From Dyella acidiphila (GTDB lineage Bacteria > Pseudomonadota > Gammaproteobacteria > Xanthomonadales > Rhodanobacteraceae), in NCBI RefSeq assembly GCF_014863405.1, contig NZ_JACZZA010000016.1:88167-127728 (forward strand): DNA of 39,562 bases. Reading direction: 5' to 3'. The notes beneath the pieces are model-generated. The model searched no databases, was not told where the DNA came from, and saw only the letters and a list, made by a program, of their open reading frames with translations. The position numbers and the translations under genes were made by a program. How positions within the stretch are numbered: the first letter of the stretch is position 1; every line of letters starts with the position of its first letter. Below, piece by piece: positions 1 through 9,981 of the stretch.

Positions 1-25
1 AGCCCTGGAAGAGGCCGGCGACTGA
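1..25 (+). CDS. 3' end of a tyrosine integrase gene (second copy, cut by window edge)
   Basis: The first 25 bases read A-L-E-E-A-G-D-stop and are identical to the last codons of the integrase at 5566-6633, with the stop codon at 23-25. Only this tail is in the window, so an almost identical integrase gene must lie just left of it, presumably as part of another element of the same family. Whether that upstream gene is complete cannot be seen. Confidence 0.7.
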
Positions 26-185
26 GCGACAGCACGGCGTCGGCCGGAAACGTGCATCAGGGGGTCTCACCGTTTACCATCGATGGCGTGTCGGGGTGAA
101 ACGCTTGGGAGGCCGCAGCCGCGCTAGGGGATCAGGGCGAAAGTACGACAGAACACGGTGGCGTGCGCTGTTGTTCCAGACACGG
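1..185 (+). repeat. Direct repeat, left copy (element boundary, may extend left of window)
   Basis: All 185 bases are identical to 6609-6793, and the match stops exactly where the two different toxin tips begin (after CACGG). The repeat holds the integrase tail, about 130 bp of non-coding spacer with a 10-bp perfect palindrome at 77-86, and the codons V-A-C-A-V-V-P-D-T. A short inverted pair (GAACA at 151-155, TGTTC at 172-176) sits around the presumed crossover region. An attachment site of the neighbouring integrase is the simplest reading, but the core has not been defined experimentally. Confidence 0.9.
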
Positions 186-655
186 TAGGAGCAGCACCCG
201 GTGCGACTTATAGTCAAATCGTCAATCGCGTACCCGGCACTGTCTTATCAGAAGCTGATGCGCTGAATCCTGGATCCCTGTCAGATAGTTTGGCTGAAAC
301 ATTCTCAGGCGGTCGCTACGCAAGCGTTCAGTTGGATCAATCCCTTACTCTGTATCGTGCATGGACACCAGGGCAGTCGAGCGAATTTGGTGCGTTCTGG
401 TCCTTGGATCAGCCGGCAGGTTCACTTTCGGCGCGTATGGATTCGGCACTCCTACCGGAATGGGGCAACATTCGAGGCACTCCGTTCAGTGCTCAAGCAT
501 CGCAATACACAACGATTGAAGTTCCGGCAGGAACTACTATTCATGTGGGCGAGGTGAGTTCTCAGGGCGGTCCATGGGTTGGCGGCCAAAGTCAGCTTCT
601 TATTGATGGCGGGGCGCAGCCCGCGTGGAAAACAGGTGGAGGATCATTGCAATGA
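158..655 (+). CDS. Toxin tip 1: orphan C-terminal domain of a polymorphic toxin
   Basis: This frame begins inside the direct repeat with V-A-C-A-V-V-P-D-T and then becomes unique. The only possible start is a GTG at 158 without a Shine-Dalgarno sequence, and an in-frame TAG at 125-127 closes the frame upstream, so it looks like a detached toxin C-terminus rather than a free-standing gene. The body has an L-Y-R-A-W motif (about residue 66), an E-F-G-A-F-W-S-L block and a late G-G-P-W-V-G-G-Q-S-Q segment. This arrangement loosely recalls NAD-targeting toxins of the TNT/ADP-ribosyltransferase type, but I cannot assign the family. The stop overlaps the next ATG (ATGA), which is the usual layout of a toxin followed by its immunity gene. 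Base composition is more AT-rich than the primase and integrase genes downstream. Confidence 0.6.
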   Translation: MACAVVPDTVGAAPGATYSQIVNRVPGTVLSEADALNPGSLSDSLAETFSGGRYASVQLDQSLTLYRAWTPGQSSEFGAFWSLDQPAGSLSARMDSALLPEWGNIRGTPFSAQASQYTTIEVPAGTTIHVGEVSSQGGPWVGGQSQLLIDGGAQPAWKTGGGSLQ

Positions 656-900
656 AGGATGTATCCGCATGCGAGTGCAGTCATTTGCACAGCGTGGGCA
701 AGTTTCATGGATGGGATGATTTCGATGGATTTGTGCGTTTATTGAAATCTAGTTCTGGATTTAAGGAGGTGCCGGTGTTGAGGCCTTACTCAAATGTAGG
801 GCTGGCTGAAAGCTGGTACCAATGCCTTCAATGCGAACAAGTTTGGCGATTGGTGTCGCCAGATCCTCCTTTCGCGGGACTGTGGGAACCAGTGTCTTGA
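652..900 (+). CDS. Candidate immunity protein for toxin tip 1
   Basis: This encodes 82 residues. The ATG at 652 overlaps the stop of toxin tip 1 by four bases and is preceded by GGTGGAGG, a good ribosome binding site, so I prefer it to the longer start at 625. Cysteines at C7/C9 and C58/C61 suggest a small zinc-ribbon-like fold. The C-terminus has a W-R-L-V-S-P-D-P-P-F stretch, but I do not recognise a named family. Immunity function is inferred only from position, size and overlap with the toxin frame. A hairpin 50 bp downstream closes the cassette. Confidence 0.6.
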   Translation: MKDVSACECSHLHSVGKFHGWDDFDGFVRLLKSSSGFKEVPVLRPYSNVGLAESWYQCLQCEQVWRLVSPDPPFAGLWEPVS

Positions 901-950
901 TTTAGCTAGGGCATCTTGTGCGGTGCCGTGCGTCAGAGTTCTAGAGGACG

Positions 951-977
951 AGAACGCCCGCCTTGCGCGGGCGTTCT
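951..977 (+). terminator. Hairpin after immunity gene 1
   Basis: An 11-bp perfect GC-rich stem (951-961 with 967-977) and a 5-base loop follow the immunity gene by 50 bp. There is no clean T-run, so termination may be weak. A very similar GCCCGC-type hairpin follows immunity gene 3 at 8280, which suggests that these cassettes travel with their own terminators. Confidence 0.55.
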
Positions 978-989
978 GCTGTCTGCGCC

Positions 990-1140
990 TGGTTTTTCGT
1001 CATGACGAAAAAATGCAGCACTGCGGATCTAGTGCAGGATAGGCAAACGCCGGGAAGTATGCGCATATCTTCGCCACTTTCTGCAAACCTTTGAGCCGGT
1101 TTAAGCAAGTTTGAGAACGCCATGGCGTTCTCAAAGCGGC
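990..1140 (-). other. oriT: Candidate origin of transfer (IncP-like oriT)
   Basis: On the minus strand, 1044-1033 reads GCCTATCCTGCA, which contains the IncP-type nick consensus YATCCTG^Y; the predicted nick lies between 1035 and 1034. A 5-bp inverted repeat (1018-1022 with 1031-1035) adjoins it, and two perfect palindromes flank it (993-1012 and the 26-bp 1110-1135). The next gene resembles TraJ, the protein that binds IncP oriT next to the nick. The consensus is established knowledge for RP4/R751-type systems; the assignment here rests on motif and context. No relaxase is encoded between the two direct repeats. Confidence 0.55.
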
Positions 1141-1307
1141 TTGAAGTGTCTTAAACCTATGCACAGAAAAGAGCAGGCAAGATGGGTATTGTGGGCCTAC
1201 ACGTAAACGTGCAGTCCCCCAATCCTGTCCTTACTCGTGCTTCGCACTCGACGGTATCTTGCTCTGCGAGGCACACGGCCGCTGCCGCGGCTTCCATCGG
1301 AGATGCA

Positions 1308-1682
1308 GTGAGTAAACGCCATACACAGTTGCGCGAGGTCTGCGAGCGCGAGCGTCCTTTAAAGGTGTACGTCACGCCAAGTGACCGGGAAAAGATCGAG
1401 GAACGCGCGAAGCTGACGGGCCTGTCCGTGTCATCCTTCCTGACTCGGGTGGGGTTGAATACGCCCATCCGCTGCATGGCCGATCATGATGTGATCGATG
1501 CCGTGTTGCGCCTCAATGCCGAAGTGACGCGAGTGGGTGCCGAGCTGAAAGCGTGGCTGACCAAGAGACCTGGTGAAGGTGCATCACCCGAAGATATCTG
1601 GCAGACGTTGCAGGAGCTGCACGCGCTTCAGCAGCAAATGATGGTCACCGTATCCCAGCTTCGTCGCCCTGGATGGCGTTAG
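1308..1682 (+). CDS. TraJ/MobC-like relaxosome accessory protein
   Basis: The GTG start at 1308 gives 124 residues, close to the length of IncP TraJ, and has GGAG five bases upstream. The frame is open back to an ATG at 1182, but the extra 42 residues look non-coding. The core L-K-V-Y-V-T-P-S-D-R-E-K-I-E, the L-S-V-S-S-F-L-T-R-V-G helix pair and the later V-L-R-L-N-A-E-V-T-R-V-G block match the ribbon-helix-helix layout of TraJ/MobC proteins. These bind oriT and help the relaxase to nick. The gene lies directly downstream of the candidate oriT, which supports the role. The family call is fairly firm; the start is uncertain. Confidence 0.7.
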   Translation: MSKRHTQLREVCERERPLKVYVTPSDREKIEERAKLTGLSVSSFLTRVGLNTPIRCMADHDVIDAVLRLNAEVTRVGAELKAWLTKRPGEGASPEDIWQTLQELHALQQQMMVTVSQLRRPGWR

Positions 1683-1906
1683 TCGGCGTCGTCGATCAAG
1701 GTCTTGCGTGTGCCCTCAACGGTAAATCGGTGAGCGGACCACGCCTGTAACTCGGCGCGAAGGCTTGCAAGGTTGTCGGCATCGGGATGCGGTTGGGCTT
1801 CTTCGGCCCGGATGCGCGCTTGGATCTCCAGCGCTTTTTGCATCCAGCGGGTTGCGTGCAGCTCAGGCAGGAATGACTCGATAAGCGGGTCAAGGGTGCG
1901 CGGCAT
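1679..1906 (-). CDS. Small protein of unknown function
   Basis: This encodes 75 residues from an ATG at 1906 with AAGGAG seven bases upstream, which argues for a real gene. It overlaps the last four bases of the convergent TraJ-like gene. The sequence is charged, predicted helical and rich in Ala, Glu and Arg (E-I-Q-A-R-I-R-A-E-E-A), with no signal peptide or membrane segment. I do not recognise it. Its position between the TraJ-like and repressor genes suggests a part in transfer or control of the element, but nothing in the sequence shows that. Confidence 0.55.
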   Translation of the reverse strand: MPRTLDPLIESFLPELHATRWMQKALEIQARIRAEEAQPHPDADNLASLRAELQAWSAHRFTVEGTRKTLIDDAD

Positions 1907-2050
1907 GAGCAAACTCCTTTACAGCCAAGGCATGGAGGCTGTGGGCGGGTGCTTTATTTTAAGAGAAAACCCCATCACTAGCTGCTATCTGCAGCTGTGC
2001 GGTACCACTATGCGATCCCTCATCCAGCGCGGATCGTTCTTCCTTAGCTG

Positions 2051-2395
2051 CTACGAATGCATCGCAGCAAGCTGCTTGGTGCGGTGTTTGACGATCAGGC
2101 CATCGAGTACCGCTTGAACAACGCTCTGCTCGTCCGGCGGCAAGCTGGAGACGGCCTCGAACAGCATGGTCAGGCGCGCACCGTGCGGTCCTCGCTCGCT
2201 GGGATCAAACACCAGCTCATCGAGCGAAACGTGCAATGCCAGCGCAATCTTCTTCAACCCATCAAGCGAAGGCTGCGCGTTCCCGGCTTCATACCGGCGA
2301 ACCTGATTGACATGCAATCCGGCCAGCTCGGCGAGGTCGTTCTGGGTAAGGCTCTGGGACTTACGCAGGCGCACCAGGTTGGCGGCAATGCTCAT
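2051..2395 (-). CDS. XRE-family helix-turn-helix repressor
   Basis: This encodes 114 residues from the ATG at 2395; an in-frame ATG at 2425 would add ten residues. An HTH_3 domain covers residues 1-60 with a clear L-T-Q-N-D-L-A-E-L-A-G-L-H-V-N-Q-V-R-R-Y-E-A-G-N core. A helical tail (S-L-P-P-D-E-Q-S-V-V-Q-A-V-L-D) probably dimerises. The gene is transcribed away from the primase-integrase operon, and the spacer between them has two palindromes and a third half-site. It therefore probably represses both itself and the operon and keeps the element quiet. That role is inferred from layout and family. Confidence 0.8.
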   Translation of the reverse strand: MSIAANLVRLRKSQSLTQNDLAELAGLHVNQVRRYEAGNAQPSLDGLKKIALALHVSLDELVFDPSERGPHGARLTMLFEAVSSLPPDEQSVVQAVLDGLIVKHRTKQLAAMHS

Positions 2396-2450
2396 GCAGA
2401 AATGTCGTAGCGGGATGGTGCGCATGAGGCTAAACCCTGGGTTCTTGATG

Positions 2451-2528
2451 GGTTTGACAAACCTACCCTAGTAGGTATCACAATACAACCCCGAAAGGGT
2501 ATTGACGCCCATCCCAACAAGGTAGGTT
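2451..2528 (+). promoter_or_regulatory. Divergent operator/promoter region of the element
   Basis: This region holds a 13-base odd palindrome GGTTTGACAAACC (2451-2463) and a second one, ACCTACCCTAGTAGGT (2461-2476), sharing three bases. A further GGTAGGTT half-site at 2521-2528 overlaps the ribosome binding region of the primase gene. A TTGACA (2454-2459) could serve as -35 with a weak TATCAC -10 at 2476-2481. The XRE repressor encoded on the other strand is the obvious candidate to bind here. Confidence 0.55.
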
Positions 2529-2529
2529 T

Positions 2530-5500
2530 ATGGCTCGTATCCCCGAGCACGAAATCGAGCAGCTCAAGCGCGAGGTGTCGCTGGTCCGGCTGGTCGAGGC
2601 GGACGGGATCGCGCTGGCCAAGCAGGGCAAGGACTATGCGTGCCGCTGCCCCTTCCACGAGGATGCGACGCCCTCGCTGATCGTGACGCCGACGAAAAAC
2701 CTGTATCACTGCTTCGGCTGCAACGCGGCCGGCGGTCCGATCGACTGGGTGATGCAGCGCCGTGGCGTGAGCTTCCGGCATGCGGTGGACGTGCTGCGCA
2801 CAGAGCTGGGCGTGGTGGATGCGCCGGCGGTGGCCACGGTGCGCACGCCGGCCGCTTTTACCCTAGCCGCCGAGGCCGATCGGCAAATCCTGCTGCGCCA
2901 GGTGCTCGACTACTACCACGCGACCTTGAAGGAAAATCCCGAGGCGTTGGCGTATCTGGCCAAGCGTGGCCTGCAGCATCCCGAACTGATCGCGCGCTTC
3001 CAACTGGGCTACGCCAACCGCACGCTGGGTTACCGCCTGCCGGATAAGCAGCTCAAGGCCGGTGCCGAACAACGCGGCCGGCTGCAGGCGATTGGCCTGC
3101 TGCGCGACTCCGGCCACGAACACTTCAACGGCAGCCTGGTCGTGCCGGTGATCGGCACGGACGGCACGATCCAGGAGGTGTACGGACGCAAGATCCGCGA
3201 TGATCTGCGTGCAGGCACCGCCTATCACCTGTATCTGCCGGGACCGCATGCCGGCGTGTGGAACGAGGAAGGCCTTGCCGCATGCGACGGCGAAGTGATC
3301 CTGTGCGAAGCGTTGATCGATGCGATGACCTTCTGGGTGCACGGCCTGCGCAACGTCACGGCCAGTTACGGCGTACACGGGTTTACCGACGATCATCGCG
3401 CGGCCTTCCAGCGTTACGGCATCCGTCGCGTGCTGATCGCCTATGACCGCGATGACGCCGGCAACACCGCCGCCGACGCGTTGGCCAAAACGCTGATGGC
3501 CGAGGGCATCGACTGCTATCGCGTGCTGTTCCCGAAGGGCATGGATGCCAATGCGTATGCCTTGGCGATGAATCCGCCGGCCAAAGCGTTAGCGTTGGTG
3601 ATCCGTAAAGCGCAATGGTTAGGTAGTGGTGATGCGCCGACACCGACGAGTGCACCGCGTGATGCGCTGGACGTGATCGATCCTCACTTAGCGGCTGCTC
3701 CGGCTGCACCGGTCGCTAAGGAAAAAGCGGTCGCCGTGGAGGAGGTGCGTGAACCCACACTCGCCACGCCGCTGCCGCCGGCACCGGTCGATGACGTGGC
3801 CACGCAGGAAGGCGAGCACGACCTGGTGCTGACCTTCGGCGATCGCCGTTACCGCGTGCGCGGCTGGAAGAAGCCGCTCAATCCCGAAGCGTTGAAGATC
3901 AATCTCCTGGTCAGCCGGGGCGAACGCTTCCACGTCGACACGCTGGATCTGTATCAGGCTAAAGCGCGTGCCGCATTTACCAAGCAGGCCGGCATGGAGC
4001 TGGGTGAGGCTGAGGATGTGCTCAAACACGATCTGGGCCGTGTGCTGTTGAAACTCGAAGCGGTGCAGACCGAACAACTGACCGCCGCGCTCACCAAAGA
4101 AGACAAGCAACCTAAGCTCAGCGACAGCGAGCACAGCGACGCGTTAGCGTTGCTGAAATCGCCCGATCTGCTCGACCGCATCGTGGCCGACTTTACGGCG
4201 TGTGGCGTGGTGGGCGAGCGCACCAATACGCTGGTCGGGTACGTGGCGGCAGTATCACGTCAGCTCGATCGTCCGCTGGCCGTGATCATCCAAAGCTCCA
4301 GCGCCGCCGGCAAGAGTGCGCTGATGGATGCGGTGCTCGCCCTGATGCCCGACGAGGTGCAGGTGCGCTACTCGGCGATGACTGGGCAAAGCCTGTTTTA
4401 CATGGGTGAGACCAACCTCAAGCACAAGATCTTGGCCATCGCGGAAGAAGAGGGCGCGTCGAACGCAAGCTATGCCTTGAAGCTGTTGCAATCGGAAGGG
4501 CAGGTGACGATTGCCAGCACCGGCAAAGATCCCACCACGGGTCTTCTGGTCACGCACGAGTACCGGGTGGAAGGTCCGGTGATGCTGTTTTTAACCACCA
4601 CCGCGATCGACATCGATGAGGAACTGCTCAACCGCTGCCTGGTGCTGACGGTGAACGAGAGCCGTGAGCAGACGCGTGCCATCCATGCGTTGCAGCGTCA
4701 GCGGCAAACGCTCAACGGTCTCTTGGCCGCCACCGATCGCGAGGCGATCCTGGCCGTGCATCGCAATGCGCAGCGCTTGTTGCAACCGCTTGCGGTGGTC
4801 AATCCGCATGCCGATGGCCTGACCTTCCTGGATGACCAGACGCGCACGCGCCGCGATCACATGAAATACCTGACGCTGATCCGTGCAATCGCGCTGTTAC
4901 ACCAGTACCAGCGGCCGGTGCACACGGTGCAGCACCGCGGCAAAGAGCTGCGTTACATCGAGGTGTTGCCGACCGATATCGCGGTGGCCAATCAGCTCGC
5001 GCACGAGGTGCTGGGCCGCACGCTCGATGAGTTGCCGCCGCAAACCCGCTTGTTGCTGAAACACCTGCATACGTGGGTCAGCGATGAGTGCGAACGGTTG
5101 GCGGTATCCCGCACGGATCTGCGCTTCACGCGCCGGCAGGTGCGTGCGCTGACGGGCTGGGGTGATACGCAACTGAAAATCCATCTGGGCCGCCTGGCCG
5201 AACTGGAGTACGTGCTGATCCACCGCGCCGATCGTGGCCAGCGCTTCGACTACGAACTGCTGTATGACGGCGAGGGCGAGCAGGGCGGCCGCTTCCTGAT
5301 GGGGCTGACCGAGGCGAACGGTGACGCGATGACCGCCTACGACAGCGACCGGTCGGGGGGCAGCGCATCGCGGTCGGCATCCGGTCGGGCCACGGTCGGC
5401 GCGGTATCGGGCCGTGGTCGTCGAGTCGCCGATACCGCGCACGCCATGCACAGCAACGTCTCGACGCTGATCGATGCGAAAACCTCACCGACAAGCACGA

Positions 5501-5562
5501 CACCGGTGGTCTCGCGCGCCGGGTCGTACACAGCCGCTTCTCACTTAGCCGCCGGCAAGTAA
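2530..5562 (+). CDS. CHC2 zinc-finger/Toprim primase fused to an ATPase domain
   Basis: This encodes 1010 residues. A DnaG-type zinc finger is visible at C40-x2-H43-x17-C61-x2-C64, followed by a Toprim domain with the acidic E260 and the D-R-D-D motif at 306-309. After a Pro/Ala-rich linker (about 370-430), a second half carries a Walker A-like A-A-G-K-S at 592-596, plus I-A-E-E-E and T-T-T-A-I-D-I-D-E-E segments as in AAA-type helicases. The enzyme likely makes primers and unwinds DNA for element replication or for complementary-strand synthesis after transfer. The stop codon is three bases before the integrase ATG, so the two are probably co-transcribed and translationally coupled. The C-terminal 100 residues are Ser/Thr/Arg-rich and probably disordered. 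Confidence 0.85.
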   Translation: MARIPEHEIEQLKREVSLVRLVEADGIALAKQGKDYACRCPFHEDATPSLIVTPTKNLYHCFGCNAAGGPIDWVMQRRGVSFRHAVDVLRTELGVVDAPAVATVRTPAAFTLAAEADRQILLRQVLDYYHATLKENPEALAYLAKRGLQHPELIARFQLGYANRTLGYRLPDKQLKAGAEQRGRLQAIGLLRDSGHEHFNGSLVVPVIGTDGTIQEVYGRKIRDDLRAGTAYHLYLPGPHAGVWNEEGLAACDGEVILCEALIDAMTFWVHGLRNVTASYGVHGFTDDHRAAFQRYGIRRVLIAYDRDDAGNTAADALAKTLMAEGIDCYRVLFPKGMDANAYALAMNPPAKALALVIRKAQWLGSGDAPTPTSAPRDALDVIDPHLAAAPAAPVAKEKAVAVEEVREPTLATPLPPAPVDDVATQEGEHDLVLTFGDRRYRVRGWKKPLNPEALKINLLVSRGERFHVDTLDLYQAKARAAFTKQAGMELGEAEDVLKHDLGRVLLKLEAVQTEQLTAALTKEDKQPKLSDSEHSDALALLKSPDLLDRIVADFTACGVVGERTNTLVGYVAAVSRQLDRPLAVIIQSSSAAGKSALMDAVLALMPDEVQVRYSAMTGQSLFYMGETNLKHKILAIAEEEGASNASYALKLLQSEGQVTIASTGKDPTTGLLVTHEYRVEGPVMLFLTTTAIDIDEELLNRCLVLTVNESREQTRAIHALQRQRQTLNGLLAATDREAILAVHRNAQRLLQPLAVVNPHADGLTFLDDQTRTRRDHMKYLTLIRAIALLHQYQRPVHTVQHRGKELRYIEVLPTDIAVANQLAHEVLGRTLDELPPQTRLLLKHLHTWVSDECERLAVSRTDLRFTRRQVRALTGWGDTQLKIHLGRLAELEYVLIHRADRGQRFDYELLYDGEGEQGGRFLMGLTEANGDAMTAYDSDRSGGSASRSASGRATVGAVSGRGRRVADTAHAMHSNVSTLIDAKTSPTSTTPVVSRAGSYTAASHLAAGK

Positions 5563-5565
5563 GCC

Positions 5566-6633
5566 ATGCCGCGCAAAGGCCAGCACACCCCGCGAACGCC
5601 GATCGGCGACGTACGCGATCCGGACAGCCTGTATCACGCCATGCTGCGCTTCGGTGCGTGGCAGCGCGAGAAAAACTACTCTGAGAAGACCATCGAGGCG
5701 CGCGAGATTTACCTGCGTTACTTCGTCGCCTGGTGCGATGCACGTGGTCTGCGTCGTCCGCAGGAGATCACCAAGCCGATCCTGGAGCGGTATCAGCGTT
5801 ACCTGTTTGTGCATCGGAAGAAGGATGGCCAGCCGCTCTCCACACGCAGCCAGCACACGCGCATCGTGCCGGTGCGTGCGCTGTTTAAATGGCTCGCGCG
5901 GTACAACCACATCCTCTACAACCCGGCCTCGGACCTGGAGATGCCGCGCCTGGAACATCGGTTGCCCAAGCATGTGCTGACGGCCGCCGAAGCCGAGGCG
6001 ATCATGGCGGTGCCAGATCTCCAAACATCGACGGGCGTGCGTGATCGTGCGATCCTGGAAACGCTGTACTCCACCGGCATCCGCCGCATGGAGCTGATCG
6101 GTATCCACGTGCATGACATCGACACCGAGCGCGGCACGCTGATCGTGCGCCAGGGCAAGGGTCGCAAGGATCGGATGGTGCCGATCGGTGAGCGTGCGCT
6201 GGCGTGGATCGGCAAATACCTGGACGATGTGCGGCCGGAGCTGGTCGGCGGGAGTGATGACGGTACGCTGTTCCCGACGCACCTGGGTGAAGCGTTTACG
6301 CCCAATCGTCTGACGCAGATGGTGCGCGAGTACGTCGATGCCGCCAAGCTCACCAAGCGCGGTAGCTGCCACCTGTTTAGGCACACGATGGCCACGCTGA
6401 TGCTGGAAAACGGGGCGGACATCCGTTTTATCCAGGCGATGCTCGGCCACGTCTCGCTCAACACCACGCAGATCTACACGCAGGTGAGCATCCGGCAGCT
6501 CAAGGCGATCCACACGGCCACGCATCCGGGGCGCCTGCCGGTCGCGCGTGCGTCCGTAGAGGTGCCGGCGGCTGATCGCGACACGTTGCTGGCCACGCTC
6601 GACGCCGAAGCCCTGGAAGAGGCCGGCGACTGA
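5566..6633 (+). CDS. Tyrosine recombinase/integrase of the element
   Basis: This encodes 355 residues. An N-terminal SAM-like core-binding domain (about 25-115) is followed by the catalytic domain. The catalytic residues are visible: R173 in G-I-R-R-M-E-L, a K198/K201 beta-hairpin lysine, H269-x2-R272 (H-L-F-R-H), H295 in L-G-H and the nucleophile Y304. Overall it resembles XerC/D-type recombinases with an extra 45-residue tail. The last codons are part of the 185-bp direct repeat, so the gene ends within the element boundary. This places the integrase next to its own attachment site, as is typical of integrative elements. An identical tail at 1-25 shows a second copy upstream. Confidence 0.92.
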   Translation: MPRKGQHTPRTPIGDVRDPDSLYHAMLRFGAWQREKNYSEKTIEAREIYLRYFVAWCDARGLRRPQEITKPILERYQRYLFVHRKKDGQPLSTRSQHTRIVPVRALFKWLARYNHILYNPASDLEMPRLEHRLPKHVLTAAEAEAIMAVPDLQTSTGVRDRAILETLYSTGIRRMELIGIHVHDIDTERGTLIVRQGKGRKDRMVPIGERALAWIGKYLDDVRPELVGGSDDGTLFPTHLGEAFTPNRLTQMVREYVDAAKLTKRGSCHLFRHTMATLMLENGADIRFIQAMLGHVSLNTTQIYTQVSIRQLKAIHTATHPGRLPVARASVEVPAADRDTLLATLDAEALEEAGD

Positions 6634-6793
6634 GCGACAGCACGGCGTCGGCCGGAAACGTGCATCAGGGGGTCTCACCGTTTACCATCGATGGCGTGTC
6701 GGGGTGAAACGCTTGGGAGGCCGCAGCCGCGCTAGGGGATCAGGGCGAAAGTACGACAGAACACGGTGGCGTGCGCTGTTGTTCCAGACACGG
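6609..6793 (+). repeat. Direct repeat, right copy (element boundary)
   Basis: This is identical over 185 bases to 1-185 and includes the last eight integrase codons. The identity ends after CACGG, where toxin tip 2 starts. Perfect identity over non-coding DNA implies a recent common origin of the two copies. With the left copy it delimits a unit of 6608 bp. Confidence 0.92.
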
Positions 6794-7128
6794 CAGAGAC
6801 CGTGATTCAACGCGGCGGTGCTCATGGAGATGTAAAGGGGATTCCGGGTTACGAGTCGCACCATACGCCAGCTGATTCGATTAGCCCGGTTCCGACTAAT
6901 CAGGGGCCTGCGATTGCGATGAAGGTCGAAGATCATCGATTAACGGCAAGCTGGGGTAACTCTCGAGAAGCGCGCATCTATCGTCAGCAACAGGCTTCTT
7001 TGATTGAGCAGGGCAACTTTAGAGCTGCCCAGCAGATGGACGTTCAGGATATTCGCGCGAAGTTTGGTAGCAAGTACGACGACGCAATTCAACAGATGTT
7101 GGAATACACCAACAATCAGGGTTTCTAA
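6766..7128 (+). CDS. Toxin tip 2: HNH/AHH-like nuclease C-terminal domain
   Basis: The frame enters from the direct repeat (V-A-C-A-V-V-P-D-T) and then encodes about 110 unique residues. As for tip 1, only a GTG inside the repeat could start it and no ribosome binding site is visible. The body has E-S-H-H-T-P-A-D-S (H32, H33), a G-P-A-I-A-M stretch and D56-H57 in V-E-D-H-R-L-T. This histidine-rich pattern is common in toxin tips at the end of Rhs/PAAR and hemagglutinin-type proteins and resembles treble-clef HNH-type nucleases. DNase or RNase activity is inferred. The immunity gene starts one base after the stop. Confidence 0.65.
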   Translation: MACAVVPDTAETVIQRGGAHGDVKGIPGYESHHTPADSISPVPTNQGPAIAMKVEDHRLTASWGNSREARIYRQQQASLIEQGNFRAAQQMDVQDIRAKFGSKYDDAIQQMLEYTNNQGF

Positions 7129-7129
7129 G

Positions 7130-7552
7130 ATGAACTACGAAATATCGCCTTTGGAAGGTGTTCGTGGAATTCGATTTGGCATGAATTTCCAGGCCGTAAG
7201 GTCGTTGGTGGGCATTGACTTCAAGTCGTTCAAGCGCACAGCCTCTGCCGTCTTTCCATGTGATCACTTTTCGGAAGCTGGAGTGTTTGCCTACTATGAT
7301 GCGAATGGGGCGTTGGAGGCATTGGAGTTGGCTGAGCCTGCTGCTCCAACCTTTGATGGCGTAAATCTTCTTGGGTTGAGTTTTGAATCGGTATTGGCTC
7401 TTTTAGAGTCTAAAGATGCTTCTGTTTCTAAAGAGGCTGATGGGGCGATTTCTCTTGCTCTTGGCGTCAGTGTGTATGCGCCTCAGGCGCTCAAAGATCC
7501 CACTGCAAATTGCGAGAGCGTAGTTGTATTTAAGCGCGGTTATTACGATTAG
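7130..7552 (+). CDS. Candidate immunity protein for toxin tip 2
   Basis: This encodes 140 residues from the ATG at 7130, one base after the toxin stop. An open frame runs back to 7004 but lies inside the toxin and is spurious. The protein is acidic and soluble, with two similar halves (G-V-R-G-I-R-F-G-M and G-V-N-L-L-G-L-S-F-E-S-V-L-A-L-L) that may form a repeated alpha/beta fold. I do not recognise a named family. The role is inferred from its place behind the toxin. Confidence 0.6.
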   Translation: MNYEISPLEGVRGIRFGMNFQAVRSLVGIDFKSFKRTASAVFPCDHFSEAGVFAYYDANGALEALELAEPAAPTFDGVNLLGLSFESVLALLESKDASVSKEADGAISLALGVSVYAPQALKDPTANCESVVVFKRGYYD

Positions 7553-7554
7553 AA

Positions 7555-8022
7555 GTTCCAAACACGGCATCAAAGCTTACTTTCGATCCGTCGTTGAATG
7601 TCGTAGATAGAAATTTCGCGACAAGAACAGGCGAGATCCTGGCCGACAACCCAGTAGGTGCCGCTAGCTATGCTCGACTGCAGAGTCAAGGTACGAATGT
7701 TGTGTTTGTAAATGATCCAGAGATGGCATCAATGGGGACGTTTGATCCCAATGCCAACGAGGTGACTGTAAATATGGCTCTACACTCGTCCCCTGATGAG
7801 GCTGCGTCCACCATTGTCCACGAAGCTACACATCAGAATGGATTTTTCAACGGCATTCCGCAGAATACTCAGTACACGGAATATCAGGCGTTCAGAAACG
7901 AGAGCCTTTTTCAGAACGGAGTTAGGCCGACACTGGATGAGCGCATGAATATTTGGAACGACGTGCAGCAGCTCTACCCTGATCTTCCTCAGGGCAAATA
8001 TCCTTTCGGAGGTCAGCAATGA
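7555..8022 (+). CDS. Toxin tip 3: HEXXH zinc metalloprotease-like domain
   Basis: The frame begins three bases after the stop of immunity gene 2 with V-P-N-T-A, the shared cassette head, and has no ATG; a TTG at 7594 is the first conventional start. It encodes about 155 residues. A zinc-binding H89-E-A-T-H93 motif (T-I-V-H-E-A-T-H-Q) is followed by a possible third ligand in T-E-Y-Q-A-F-R-N-E. This pattern fits metallopeptidase effector domains. Without an N-terminal carrier it should not be secreted. The stop overlaps the next ATG (ATGA), giving the same architecture as tip 1. Confidence 0.65.
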   Translation, partial: VPNTASKLTFDPSLNVVDRNFATRTGEILADNPVGAASYARLQSQGTNVVFVNDPEMASMGTFDPNANEVTVNMALHSSPDEAASTIVHEATHQNGFFNGIPQNTQYTEYQAFRNESLFQNGVRPTLDERMNIWNDVQQLYPDLPQGKYPFGGQQ

Positions 8023-8264
8023 AGACTTTGATCGCAAATCAAGTTTCCGGTGCTGAGGCGGCGAAGCTCATAGGGCAAGGATGTGAGTTGCTCTGTCCCG
8101 TCTGCAACGCAAAAATCAAAACGATTCCAGAGGAGTGGAGCGCTGGCAAGCCGTTGCACGGAATAGAATGCCCGAATGATCAGCGCCATTTTATGGTCCA
8201 CTACGATGACGGCGCGAAGATGAAGGAGATGCGCGATCGCATGAAAGCGAGGTCTCACAAGTAG
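8019..8264 (+). CDS. Candidate immunity protein for toxin tip 3
   Basis: This encodes 81 residues. The ATG overlaps the toxin stop by four bases, and GGAGGT lies just upstream. Cysteines C22, C26-x2-C29 and C51 suggest a small zinc-ribbon, as in immunity protein 1, although the two sequences are not obviously related. The tail is basic and helical (M-K-E-M-R-D-R-M-K-A-R). Function is inferred from position. A terminator hairpin follows 15 bp after the stop. Confidence 0.6.
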   Translation: MKTLIANQVSGAEAAKLIGQGCELLCPVCNAKIKTIPEEWSAGKPLHGIECPNDQRHFMVHYDDGAKMKEMRDRMKARSHK

Positions 8265-8279
8265 CGAACGATCAAGTAG

Positions 8280-8303
8280 ACGCCCGCCTAGTGCGGGCGT
8301 TTT
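8280..8303 (+). terminator. Rho-independent terminator after immunity gene 3
   Basis: An 8-bp stem ACGCCCGC/GCGGGCGT (8280-8287 with 8293-8300) with a 5-base loop is followed by TTT. It directly precedes the head of toxin tip 4 at 8304, so tip 4 would not be reached by transcription from upstream cassettes. Confidence 0.7.
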
Positions 8304-8616
8304 GTTGTTCCAAACGCAGCAACTCCAGTAAATACAGGCACGGTCTGGGACTCAATTAGTCCCACCCAAGATGCTTATGCGGGTACTCAAATTCCACGTT
8401 CCTTCACATTGTCTACGGATGGTGCTGACGTATGGGTGGCGCCAAATGCTACTGAACATATGGCGGAGTACGCACTCGGCAACAATGGGTCAGCTGGCGG
8501 ATTTAGCCCGGATCTAGTAAACCTCAACTCCCAAGTTCAGTTGACTAGTCTTCAGGCAGCAGTCGGCGACGCTACTGCTAACGGAGTTCCTTACGGAACC
8601 TTGATAAACCAAGGGG
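8304..8616 (+). pseudogene. Toxin tip 4, truncated by the IS element
   Basis: The frame opens with V-V-P-N-A-A, the cassette head, immediately after a terminator. It reads about 104 residues to the IS boundary, including I-P-R-S-F-T-L and W-V-A-P-N-A-T-E-H-M-A-E-Y, a pattern I associate with a widespread polymorphic-toxin tip whose activity I cannot name. The C-terminal end and any immunity gene are missing: the IS3 element replaces them and the sequence beyond it is unrelated. The fragment has no start codon and is presumably inert. Confidence 0.6.
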
Positions 8617-8642
8617 TGGTACGCCCCCGCTTTCGTAGACGG

Positions 8643-9494
8643 TTAGGTACTCGTTTTTGAGTTAGCCGCCTCAAACATCATCGGCGCAAGGCCACCCAGA
8701 TGTCCATGTCGGCGTTGCCGGTTGTAGAAAACCTCGATGTAATCGAACACGTCACTGCGCGCTTCTTCACGACTGCTGTAGACACGACCACGCACACGCT
8801 CCTTCTTTAAGCTGCTGAAGAACGATTCGGCCACCGAGTTATCCCAGCAGTTGCCGCGTCGACTCATGCTGACCTGAAGCCCGTGCTCGCGACAGAAGCG
8901 ACGCCAATCATCGCTGCCGTATTGCACGCCTTGGTCGGAGTGAATGACGACCTCCGCCGTGGGGCGTCGCCGCCAGATCGCCATTAGGAGAGCGTCCAAG
9001 GCCAGTTCGCGCGCCAGGCTGGATTTCATCGACCAGCCGATCACCGCGCGCGAATACAGGTCGATGACGACCGCCAGGTACAACCAACCTTCCGCGGTGC
9101 GCAGGTAGGTGATGTCAGTCACCCACGATCGATCCGGCTGGTCCACGGTGAACTGCCGCTGCAATCGGTTGGGTGCAACCACGGCTGGCTTGCCGCTTTT
9201 ATAGCGCCGCCTCAGTGGCGAGCGAACCGAACGCAGGCCATGCTTGCGCATCAACCGTTCAACCCGCTTTTTGCTGATGCGCTCGCCAGCTTCCGTCAGA
9301 TCGCGATGCACATTGCGGCTTCCATACACGCCGCCAGATGCCAGATAGGATTCTTCGATGTGCACGAGCAGTCGTGCGTCTTCCTTCGCGCGCGCGGACA
9401 TCGGTTGCTTCAGCCATGCGTAATAACCGCTGCGCTCGACTTTAAGCACACGGCACATGGTGGCAACACGAAACTGCTGGCTATGGGCCTGCAT
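8643..9494 (-). CDS. IS3-family transposase OrfB (DDE integrase domain)
   Basis: This encodes 283 residues. An N-terminal HTH_21 region (R-V-L-K-V-E-R-S-G-Y-Y-A-W) precedes an rve/DDE core with D in W-V-T-D-I-T-Y-L, D in I-H-S-D-Q-G-V-Q-Y and E in S-V-A-E-S-F-F-S-S-L-K-K-E. All three acidic residues are present, so the enzyme may be active. It is normally made as an OrfAB fusion by -1 frameshifting from orfA; an A6G run on the minus strand (9545-9539) near the end of orfA is a suitable slippery site. Confidence 0.92.
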   Translation of the reverse strand: MQAHSQQFRVATMCRVLKVERSGYYAWLKQPMSARAKEDARLLVHIEESYLASGGVYGSRNVHRDLTEAGERISKKRVERLMRKHGLRSVRSPLRRRYKSGKPAVVAPNRLQRQFTVDQPDRSWVTDITYLRTAEGWLYLAVVIDLYSRAVIGWSMKSSLARELALDALLMAIWRRRPTAEVVIHSDQGVQYGSDDWRRFCREHGLQVSMSRRGNCWDNSVAESFFSSLKKERVRGRVYSSREEARSDVFDYIEVFYNRQRRHGHLGGLAPMMFEAANSKTST

Positions 9495-9511
9495 GAAGGC
9501 GTACTTCGCCT

Positions 9512-9790
9512 TTACCCCTTGGCAAAGTACGCGGCGGCCTTTTTTAAAATGTCGCGCTCCTCTTCCACGCGACGCAGCTCAGCACGAAGCCGAGCATTCT
9601 CCTGGGCCAGGTCATCGGTCTTTTGCATGCTGCGTGCCTGACGGCTTACGCCTTGTTCGCGCAGCCACGCATACAGGCTGTGCGTCGACATCCCCAAGCG
9701 TTCTGCGACCTCCGAAACGGGATAGCCACGCTCGGTAACTTGCTTGACCGCCTCAGCCTTGAACTCGTCGGTGAAACGTTTGCTGGTCAT
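9512..9790 (-). CDS. IS3-family transposase OrfA
   Basis: This encodes 92 residues from the ATG at 9790. A helix-turn-helix (R-F-T-D-E-F-K-A-E-A-V ... V-A-E-R-L-G-M-S-T-H-S-L-Y-A-W) binds the IS ends. A leucine-zipper-like coiled coil (L-A-Q-E-N-A-R-L-R-A-E-L-R-R-V-E-E-E-R-D-I-L-K-K) supports multimerisation. The length and layout are those of typical IS3 OrfA proteins. Confidence 0.9.
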   Translation of the reverse strand: MTSKRFTDEFKAEAVKQVTERGYPVSEVAERLGMSTHSLYAWLREQGVSRQARSMQKTDDLAQENARLRAELRRVEEERDILKKAAAYFAKG

Positions 9791-9825
9791 AGATCCTCCG
9801 ATCCTCAATAGACACTATCAGGTGT

Positions 9826-9981
9826 CTACGGAATCGGGGGCGTACCAGTAGTCCCTGAGATGCCATGCGCACCACCAAGCAACAGCTGCGCGTCTTCCAA
9901 GAGTTTCAACGGGGGATCCAGCGGTGCAATGTGGTAGCTGGCATTGAGGGTGAGGCAGGTTCCGGGGGAGGGCTGGTTCAT
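9826..9981 (-). pseudogene. N-terminal fragment of a small protein, cut by the IS element
   Basis: From the ATG at 9981 (with AAGGAG upstream) the frame reads 51 residues, the last ten or so coming from the IS end. The host part contains Y-H-I-A-P-L-D-P-P-L-K-L-L-E-D-A-Q-L-L-L, which weakly resembles DUF3077/DUF6124-type small proteins of pseudomonads and xanthomonads. The remainder is not found on the other side of the IS. The gene was therefore lost in the event that brought in or rearranged the IS. Confidence 0.45.

Follow-up and report, generated by a model that had tools for sequence, protein, structure and literature searches.

An integrase-primase element in Dyella acidiphila that very probably uses a toxin joint as its attachment site and carries an exchangeable toxin end as cargo

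We analysed a 39.6 kb stretch of the genome of Dyella acidiphila (C7:88167-127728 of a 28-contig assembly, hereafter the window), which opens with a putative integrative element lying between two direct repeats and carrying a toxin-like end (a tip), a primase and a tyrosine integrase. The repeat is exact over 185 bp (1-185 = 6609-6793) and reaches 188 bp with a single mismatch, at position 186. It spans the last integrase codons and runs into a coding block ending V-A-C-A-V-V-P-D-T, behind which a different open frame follows each copy. A first-pass annotation of this DNA had claimed two perfect 185-bp repeats that end in these codons, with a different tip after each, and both claims are borne out. 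The short core GTTCCARACRC occurs four times in the 39.6 kb (173, 6781, 7555 and 8307), always on the forward strand and each time opening a tip frame; 0.09 occurrences are expected in the window, and four were reached in none of 100 shuffles. Behind repeat copy 2 stand three further tip frames (C, D and E), each starting with the core word. The features of the element and of the DNA behind it are listed below (ORF, open reading frame; oriT, origin of transfer).

1-185, forward strand: repeat copy 1 (integrase gene end, arm and core), the right-hand side of an assembly join
173-185, forward strand: core GTTCCAGACACGG (codons V-P-D-T) at the integrase/tip B junction
173-655, forward strand: tip B, a toxin-like end, present also left of the window as the in-frame continuation of the YD-repeat carrier
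652-900, forward strand: small ORF overlapping tip B, a probable immunity gene by its position
952-975, forward strand: terminator-like hairpin after the tip B module, found by eye; a scan gives an overlapping stem at 965-988
1034-1163, no strand assigned: candidate oriT, a nic-like octamer plus a 41-nt imperfect inverted repeat at 1082-1163
1182-1682, forward strand: NikA-like mobilization protein (Pfam E 1e-16)
1679-1912, reverse strand: 77-aa ORF with a homologue in one relative (46%)
2051-2425, reverse strand: helix-turn-helix regulator, Cro/C1-type
2530-5562, forward strand: primase, DnaG-type with CHC2/Toprim; a homologue adjoins the integrase in most relatives
5566-6633, forward strand: XerC-like tyrosine integrase (NCBIfam NF002331)
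6609-6793, forward strand: repeat copy 2
6781-6793, forward strand: core at the integrase/tip C junction, attR-like
6781-7128, forward strand: tip C, headless, behind the integrase
7130-7552, forward strand: probable immunity gene of tip C, by its position
7555-7567, forward strand: core GTTCCAAACACGG, which opens tip D
7555-8022, forward strand: tip D, headless, with a weak metallopeptidase match (DUF6782) below that family's cut-off
8019-8264, forward strand: probable immunity gene of tip D; a homologue follows the tip D homologue in genome G056
8278-8302, forward strand: terminator-like hairpin whose T-run abuts the next core
8307-8616, forward strand: core variant GTTCCAAACGC with tip E, which an insertion sequence interrupts

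To the left of the window, on the same contig, lies a YD-repeat carrier frame of about 4,590 aa (start at L012:4065). It ends ...EAKPLVE-VPDT and continues in frame into the same tip B that opens the window, so that the toxin carrier predicted leftward by the first-pass annotation is indeed present. The window itself starts at an assembly join: a single N immediately precedes it (C7:88166), and the left contig and the window overlap by 156 bp, beginning exactly at the core. Positions 1-172 thus represent an integrase-to-tip junction, which may derive from a tandem copy or an excised circle. The carrier/tip B, integrase/tip B and integrase/tip C junctions have the 13-bp word GTTCCAGACACGG in common and nothing more, and on these comparisons the integrase/tip B junction would be the expected product of an excised circle or a tandem copy. 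The crossover block proposed earlier keeps its place at the V-P-D-T codons and shrinks in extent, since the shared core measures 13 bp and the integrase tail and the arm make up the remainder of the 185-bp repeat. An arm sequence shared by the elements on the side of the core that faces the integrase was considered and rejected: by eye, some of the 16 listed have words like GCGTCGGG in common and most do not.

The integrase is a member of NF002331 (PRK01287, 'XerC' subfamily), with 464.7 bits against a curated cut-off of 371. It is not of the IntI type, as it scores 115.7 bits against an integron integrase model whose cut-off is 265. The residues R173, K198, H269, R272, H295 and Y304 are invariant among 12 aligned sequences. 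The D. acidiphila genome holds this single integrase of the family; two further matches are 39% and 35% identical.

Natural empty sites are found in Escherichia coli, for two related elements. The cdiA-type element (at least 80% of the query) occurs in 4 of 5,426 E. coli genomes and the rhs-type primase-integrase segment, at the same threshold, in 55. In E. coli 1303, which lacks the element, cdiA is fused to the very tip that stands headless behind the element in strains C11 and C10. Strains 1303 and C11 are 97.2% identical over the 7,006 bp up to the joint and 99.7% over the 9,411 bp from the joint on, and the insertion in C11, at the VENN codons of cdiA, adds 7,782 bp relative to 1303. The 13 bp TGTTGAGAATAAC are common to both C11 junctions and to the 1303 empty site. 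Of 35 genomes that contain the displaced tip module (at least 80%), 26 have it in an annotated cdiA and nine as a headless VENN module. Strain ZYB39, in which the cdiA annotation is intact, holds two 7,782-bp units that differ by one base, and C11 carries 12 VENN cores in 29 kb, all 12 in forward orientation. The rhs pair gives the same picture: Ec-U9-1 has a full-length, empty gene whose tip lies behind two inserted units in D6, and the two strains are identical over 880 bp to the left of a 15-bp core at the DPIGL codons and over 1,354 bp from the core on. In GXU-23-25-310 a different tip separates carrier and element, as expected if later insertions or cassette moves hit the first core. An integrase with attachment (att) sites and a natural empty site is therefore found in the E. 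coli relatives, where the sequences part at the junction codons and the old tip is displaced behind the integrase, both as the first-pass annotation had foreseen; the window shows occupied junctions only.

Relatives of the integrase were found widely beside unrelated tips, another expectation of that annotation. From a scan of named genomes we kept the best 80 matches, which gave 77 loci, and dropped L041, on the same contig as L029, to leave 76. A primase homologue adjoins the integrase in 71 of these. The loci belong to Pseudomonadota, Planctomycetota, Verrucomicrobiota, Acidobacteriota, Myxococcota, Actinomycetota and other phyla, many of them metagenome bins. Polymorphic-toxin evidence is present in 44 of the 76, as an Rhs match in 30 and as other evidence in 14. 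The latter comes from Pfam in L046, L048, L052, L055, L061, L062, L068, L074, L104, L109 and L117 (haemagglutinin repeat, DUF637, PT-VENN, RHS repeat, PT-HINT, Ntox17, Tox-REase-7, colicin DNase and CdiA_C families) and consists of the in-frame joint motif only in L045, L092 and L106. Pooled scans of mechanically chosen ORFs contained wrong-frame ORFs and were kept out of the counts (TIGR03696 Rhs core: 11 of 46 upstream ORFs). With 26 seeds picked by pattern from these same loci we built a profile of the Rhs core end. It matched 57 times (E < 1e-3), in 39 of the 88 loci. The choice of seeds partly predetermines this count but has no bearing on strand, and all 57 lie on the integrase strand and none on the other.

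The joint words vary by lineage (VPDT/VPNT, VENN, DPIGL, QYYDAE, RYYDPATG, SGDTVG). We placed 91 integrases on a tree and could assign 41 of them to one of four joint classes; these 41 rows require three changes, the minimum possible. Counting the 50 unlabelled rows as a fifth class raises the number to 22, where shuffling gives a mean of 35.9. Rhs rows were labelled from the core-end profile, and the long row L154 is uncertain. Integrase lineage thus appears to track joint type. Units also stand head to tail, at least two in 18 of the 88 loci with a spacing of about 6.3-8.8 kb, although two of these 18, L032 and L033, overlap and cover parts of a single array. For the units of G186, a raw figure of 1,876 mismatches stems from a shifted register and was disregarded.

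In the family Rhodanobacteraceae the integrase is present at E <= 1e-60 in 11 of 233 genomes, D. acidiphila included, and a phylum sample of 398 genomes contains it in six, again counting D. acidiphila. Among the nine copies of that sample outside D. acidiphila, eight have the primase and six a joint motif or Rhs match; the sample overlaps the first set, two of its five other genomes being those of L052 and L112. A viral or phage origin was rejected: none of 31 viral-contig hits has the primase (E <= 1e-8), and 50,697 phage records contain no match at E <= 1e-50. Among plasmids, 138 Salmonella records match the integrase (about 52% among the matches listed); 18 of the 19 listed Salmonella matches are partial, with no annotated feature beneath. 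Twelve Leptospira plasmid records hold a distant integrase relative (40.7-44.2% among the matches listed).

Behind the integrase of the window, the same joint is followed by the unrelated tips C and D, as it is by B in front, and the E. coli cdiA loci repeat this arrangement, which is that of a polymorphic toxin. Tip D and its neighbour recur in genome G056, where they are fused to another carrier. In Rhodanobacter sp. A1T4 a tip 2 cassette (L029:13717-14492) likewise ends in a terminal hairpin whose T-run abuts the next core. Tips C and D of the window and this cassette stand without an integrase, which implies that backbones were lost or that cassettes move in trans. Tip E is interrupted by what looks by eye like an IS3-type insertion sequence (about 8617-9847, with 24-nt terminal inverted repeats, 92%). 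Elsewhere in the genome, a second Rhs gene has a headless Rhs core-end fragment beside it (C1:31227-31382, C1:32246-32443; 113-aa frame).

The remaining contents of the element largely agree with the first-pass annotation: a tip, a small ORF, a hairpin, a NikA-like protein, a helix-turn-helix regulator, a primase and an integrase are all present. The IncP-like oriT is the weak part, as the octamer TATCCTGC, which we take to be an IncP-like nic motif, occurs once (1041-1034, minus strand) where 0.94 occurrences are expected by chance. The element had also been called mobilizable. The NikA-like protein speaks for this; no relaxase is found among the window ORFs scanned against Pfam, and the NikA-like protein has no match (E <= 1e-5) in the 12 family stretches searched, so that mobilization genes do not belong to the common equipment of the family and we use the label only tentatively. 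VbhA-family antitoxins are annotated at the position of the 77-aa ORF in two plasmid-borne relatives. The probable immunity gene at 652-900 has no Pfam or NCBIfam match. Tip B has eight homologues in a protein search, one of them directly after an Rhs DPIGL joint, and a 35% match inside a 4,466-aa open frame of genome G193. Its predicted model (predicted local distance difference test, pLDDT, 73) comes closest to the NADase effector Tne2 (E 1.9e-3), followed by a fungal NADase and by Tse6; with nothing at E <= 1e-3 in the structure search, the modelled fold may be said to bear a weak, suggestive resemblance to NADase effectors.

Several relatives carry further genes between the integrase and the core. 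Toxin-antitoxin-like genes (DinJ/RelE or ParE-like) lie there in L152, L153, L155, L065, L069 and L081, in the last three identified by eye; none is seen in the window element. Sec-like leaders occupy this place in L046, L054, L055, L070, L073, L100, L116 and L117, and a mechanical test detects a signal-peptide-like leader before the core in 10 of 49 anchored units, L034 and L035 included; L186 is leader-like by eye and failed that test. A leader just before the core would give the adjacent tip, which in the circle is the element's own, a secretion start and make it a stand-alone secreted protein.

We conclude with high confidence that this is an integrative element with a toxin joint as its attachment site and an exchangeable toxin end as its cargo. 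In the mechanism we propose, the XerC-like integrase would cross over within about 13 bp of coding DNA, at V-P-D-T in the window and, in relatives, at V-E-N-N in CdiA and at D-P-I-G-L or other joint motifs in Rhs proteins. A circle of the order core, tip, immunity gene, backbone and integrase would integrate at the core in the carrier. Because such a circle starts with core, tip and immunity gene and ends with integrase and core, the incoming tip would be fused in frame to the carrier, while the old tip and its immunity gene would come to stand headless behind the integrase. Circle integration would account for in-frame fusion, displaced tip, tandem copies and arrays alike. Core-tip-immunity cassettes in series, such as those of tips C, D and E, would result from repeated insertions and from loss of the backbone that separates the cores, and the presence of the primase suggests that the excised form may replicate. 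If the ORFs are indeed toxins and immunity proteins, the host may gain a new weapon specificity and keep its old immunity.

Three other explanations have to be weighed against an integrative element with a toxin end as cargo. The repeat in the window may be an assembly artefact that conceals one ordinary insertion. The single N before the window and the 156-bp overlap starting exactly at the core are what such an artefact might leave behind; it would not readily yield the integrase/tip B junction, however, and true tandem units exist in the complete genomes of ZYB39 and D6, which makes this explanation quite unlikely. Both readings require the same core in any case. Still less probable, in our view, is that homologous recombination of the RecA type between conserved joints shuffles the tips, with the integrase a mere passenger. 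This process was proposed by Poole 2011 (PMC3150448) and Ruhe 2016 (PMC4927057), as far as the accessible text of these papers goes, and orphan modules do often retain carrier homology upstream of VENN. In one C11 module, 611 bp match the carrier at about 81% identity. The element junctions, in contrast, share just 13 or 15 bp with the empty site, a length taken as too short for RecA; moreover, the same integrase-primase pair sits at toxin joints across many phyla, and joint type follows integrase lineage.

A selfish element that lands in conserved toxin genes, and whose substitute 3' end serves only to keep the host gene working, would be mechanically identical to our reading. Lambdoid elements in icd offer a parallel, and the toxin-antitoxin genes that several relatives carry between integrase and core are a selfish stabilising trait. 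The change of specificity would then be a by-product. Yet the substitute end is not equivalent to the one that it replaces, since the tips differ and each has its own small downstream gene, and tip families recur behind unrelated carriers. We regard the purely selfish explanation as possible but unlikely.

A broader extension of the cargo reading seems to us somewhat better than an even guess. Joint landmarks such as VENN in CdiA and the VPDT-like words may be kept largely as att DNA for the integrase; orphan arrays of CDI (contact-dependent inhibition) and Rhs modules may then form an integron-like store from which a resident integrase loads, displaces and perhaps reloads headless cassettes in trans, with some lineages lending the tip a secretion leader. 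A VENN block that serves as an attachment site should keep its codons unchanged at the DNA level. A first PT-VENN search, of a class, matched only 3 of 369 genomes, and a second was therefore made around genome G564, in whose family 103 of 246 genomes matched. We took the 30 best places, one per genome, and analysed 27; the other three lacked a VENN in frame close to where the match ends. Glutamate is GAG and the first asparagine AAT in all 27; valine is GTT in 18 and GTG in nine, the alanine before VENN is GCG in 23 of 24, and the last asparagine is free (AAC in 16, AAT in 11). Relative synonymous entropy is 0.145 at A-V-E-N against 0.714 at 30 other conserved columns, the lowest of which, at -6 and -4, reach 0.24 and 0.30. 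Glutamate elsewhere in the same stretch is evenly split, with 34 GAG and 34 GAA. A freeze of this kind, amid drift in most of the adjacent codons, is what a recombination site should show, and it speaks for the main reading too.

Several findings weigh against these views. The VENN codon figures ignore kinship, with several genomes of one genus among the 27 loci, and the same test on 27 of 30 Rhs loci gives no freeze of the DPIGL codons (0.706 versus 0.764), so the codon argument holds for VENN only. The cdiA genes of C11 and C10 are annotated as frameshifted, though 903 codons are open before the joint, and the carrier frame of G186 is interrupted ahead of it. As many as 32 of the 76 named loci lack positive toxin evidence, many of them ending at contig edges; five have no nearby primase match, and L086 has a kinase-like frame behind the element, identified by eye. 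Among 33 control integrase loci (the 31 viral-contig hits and the two other D. acidiphila integrases), one, L118, has an Rhs match. An empty counterpart of the window's own carrier did not turn up, a related carrier end being present in only 3 of 233 genomes of the family, D. acidiphila included; in this respect the earlier prediction of an empty site holds in E. coli only. L118 is a viral-contig integrase with 42% identity, perhaps a distant relative of the family.

Several known systems resemble the proposed element in part. In the shufflon (Rci/pilV) a site-specific recombinase likewise changes the C-terminal end of one host protein; the cores here are direct, with all four of the window on one strand, and not inverted, and the new ends arrive from outside. 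In e14 and phage 21, both in icd, the att site lies in a coding gene and integration replaces the host gene 3' end, just as here. Whereas their new end is equivalent, the present one is a different toxin-like end that travels with a probable immunity gene as cargo. Integrons, too, have a tyrosine recombinase and, after a fixed head, headless cassettes in direct array; they differ in that the present cores are short and coding and the integrase, accompanied by a cassette of its own and a primase, stands within the array.

The closest likeness is to the orphan cdiA-CT/cdiI and rhs-CT/rhsI modules ('silent cassettes'), to which the arrays that we analysed in E. coli belong. Toxin-end exchange in CdiA, Rhs and other polymorphic toxins, together with orphan arrays, is discussed mainly as homologous recombination between joint motifs in the accessible parts of the literature (PMC3150448, PMC4927057). 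Poole 2011 (PMC3150448) described orphan modules and displacement and marked VENN and PxxxxDPxGL as joints, and Ruhe 2016 (PMC4927057) noted integrase genes among orphan modules, suggested site-specific recombination and gave a displacement model. In their accessible text, neither paper identifies an element, integrase family, att site or empty site, and VENN figures there as a peptide landmark or homology block. Zhang 2012 (PMC3482391) mentions XerC/D recombinases beside polyimmunity loci in one sentence; neither element nor junction is described in the text available. The rAID clusters of Bacteroidales (PMC12247911) combine a predicted tyrosine recombinase, an acquired immunity gene array and conserved intergenic motifs. 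They consist of immunity genes only, and the available portion makes no mention of a carrier toxin joint or a primase; here, by contrast, cores that open tip frames precede the small genes. Related cases appear, in the portions available, in PMC11278526, PMC13183296 and PMC12247911. Among the matches listed in our literature search, which covers few subscription papers and preprints and so does not assure priority, none describes this element or treats VENN as an att site.

A dedicated element, equipped with an integrase and defined cores and seen in naturally paired empty and occupied sites, would make tip exchange in polymorphic toxins directly testable. It would also suggest a job for a widespread integrase subfamily that is annotated just as 'XerC', and predicts that new toxin-immunity pairs may be found directly after integrases of the NF002331 type. 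For CdiA, it may offer a reason at the DNA level for the VENN motif.

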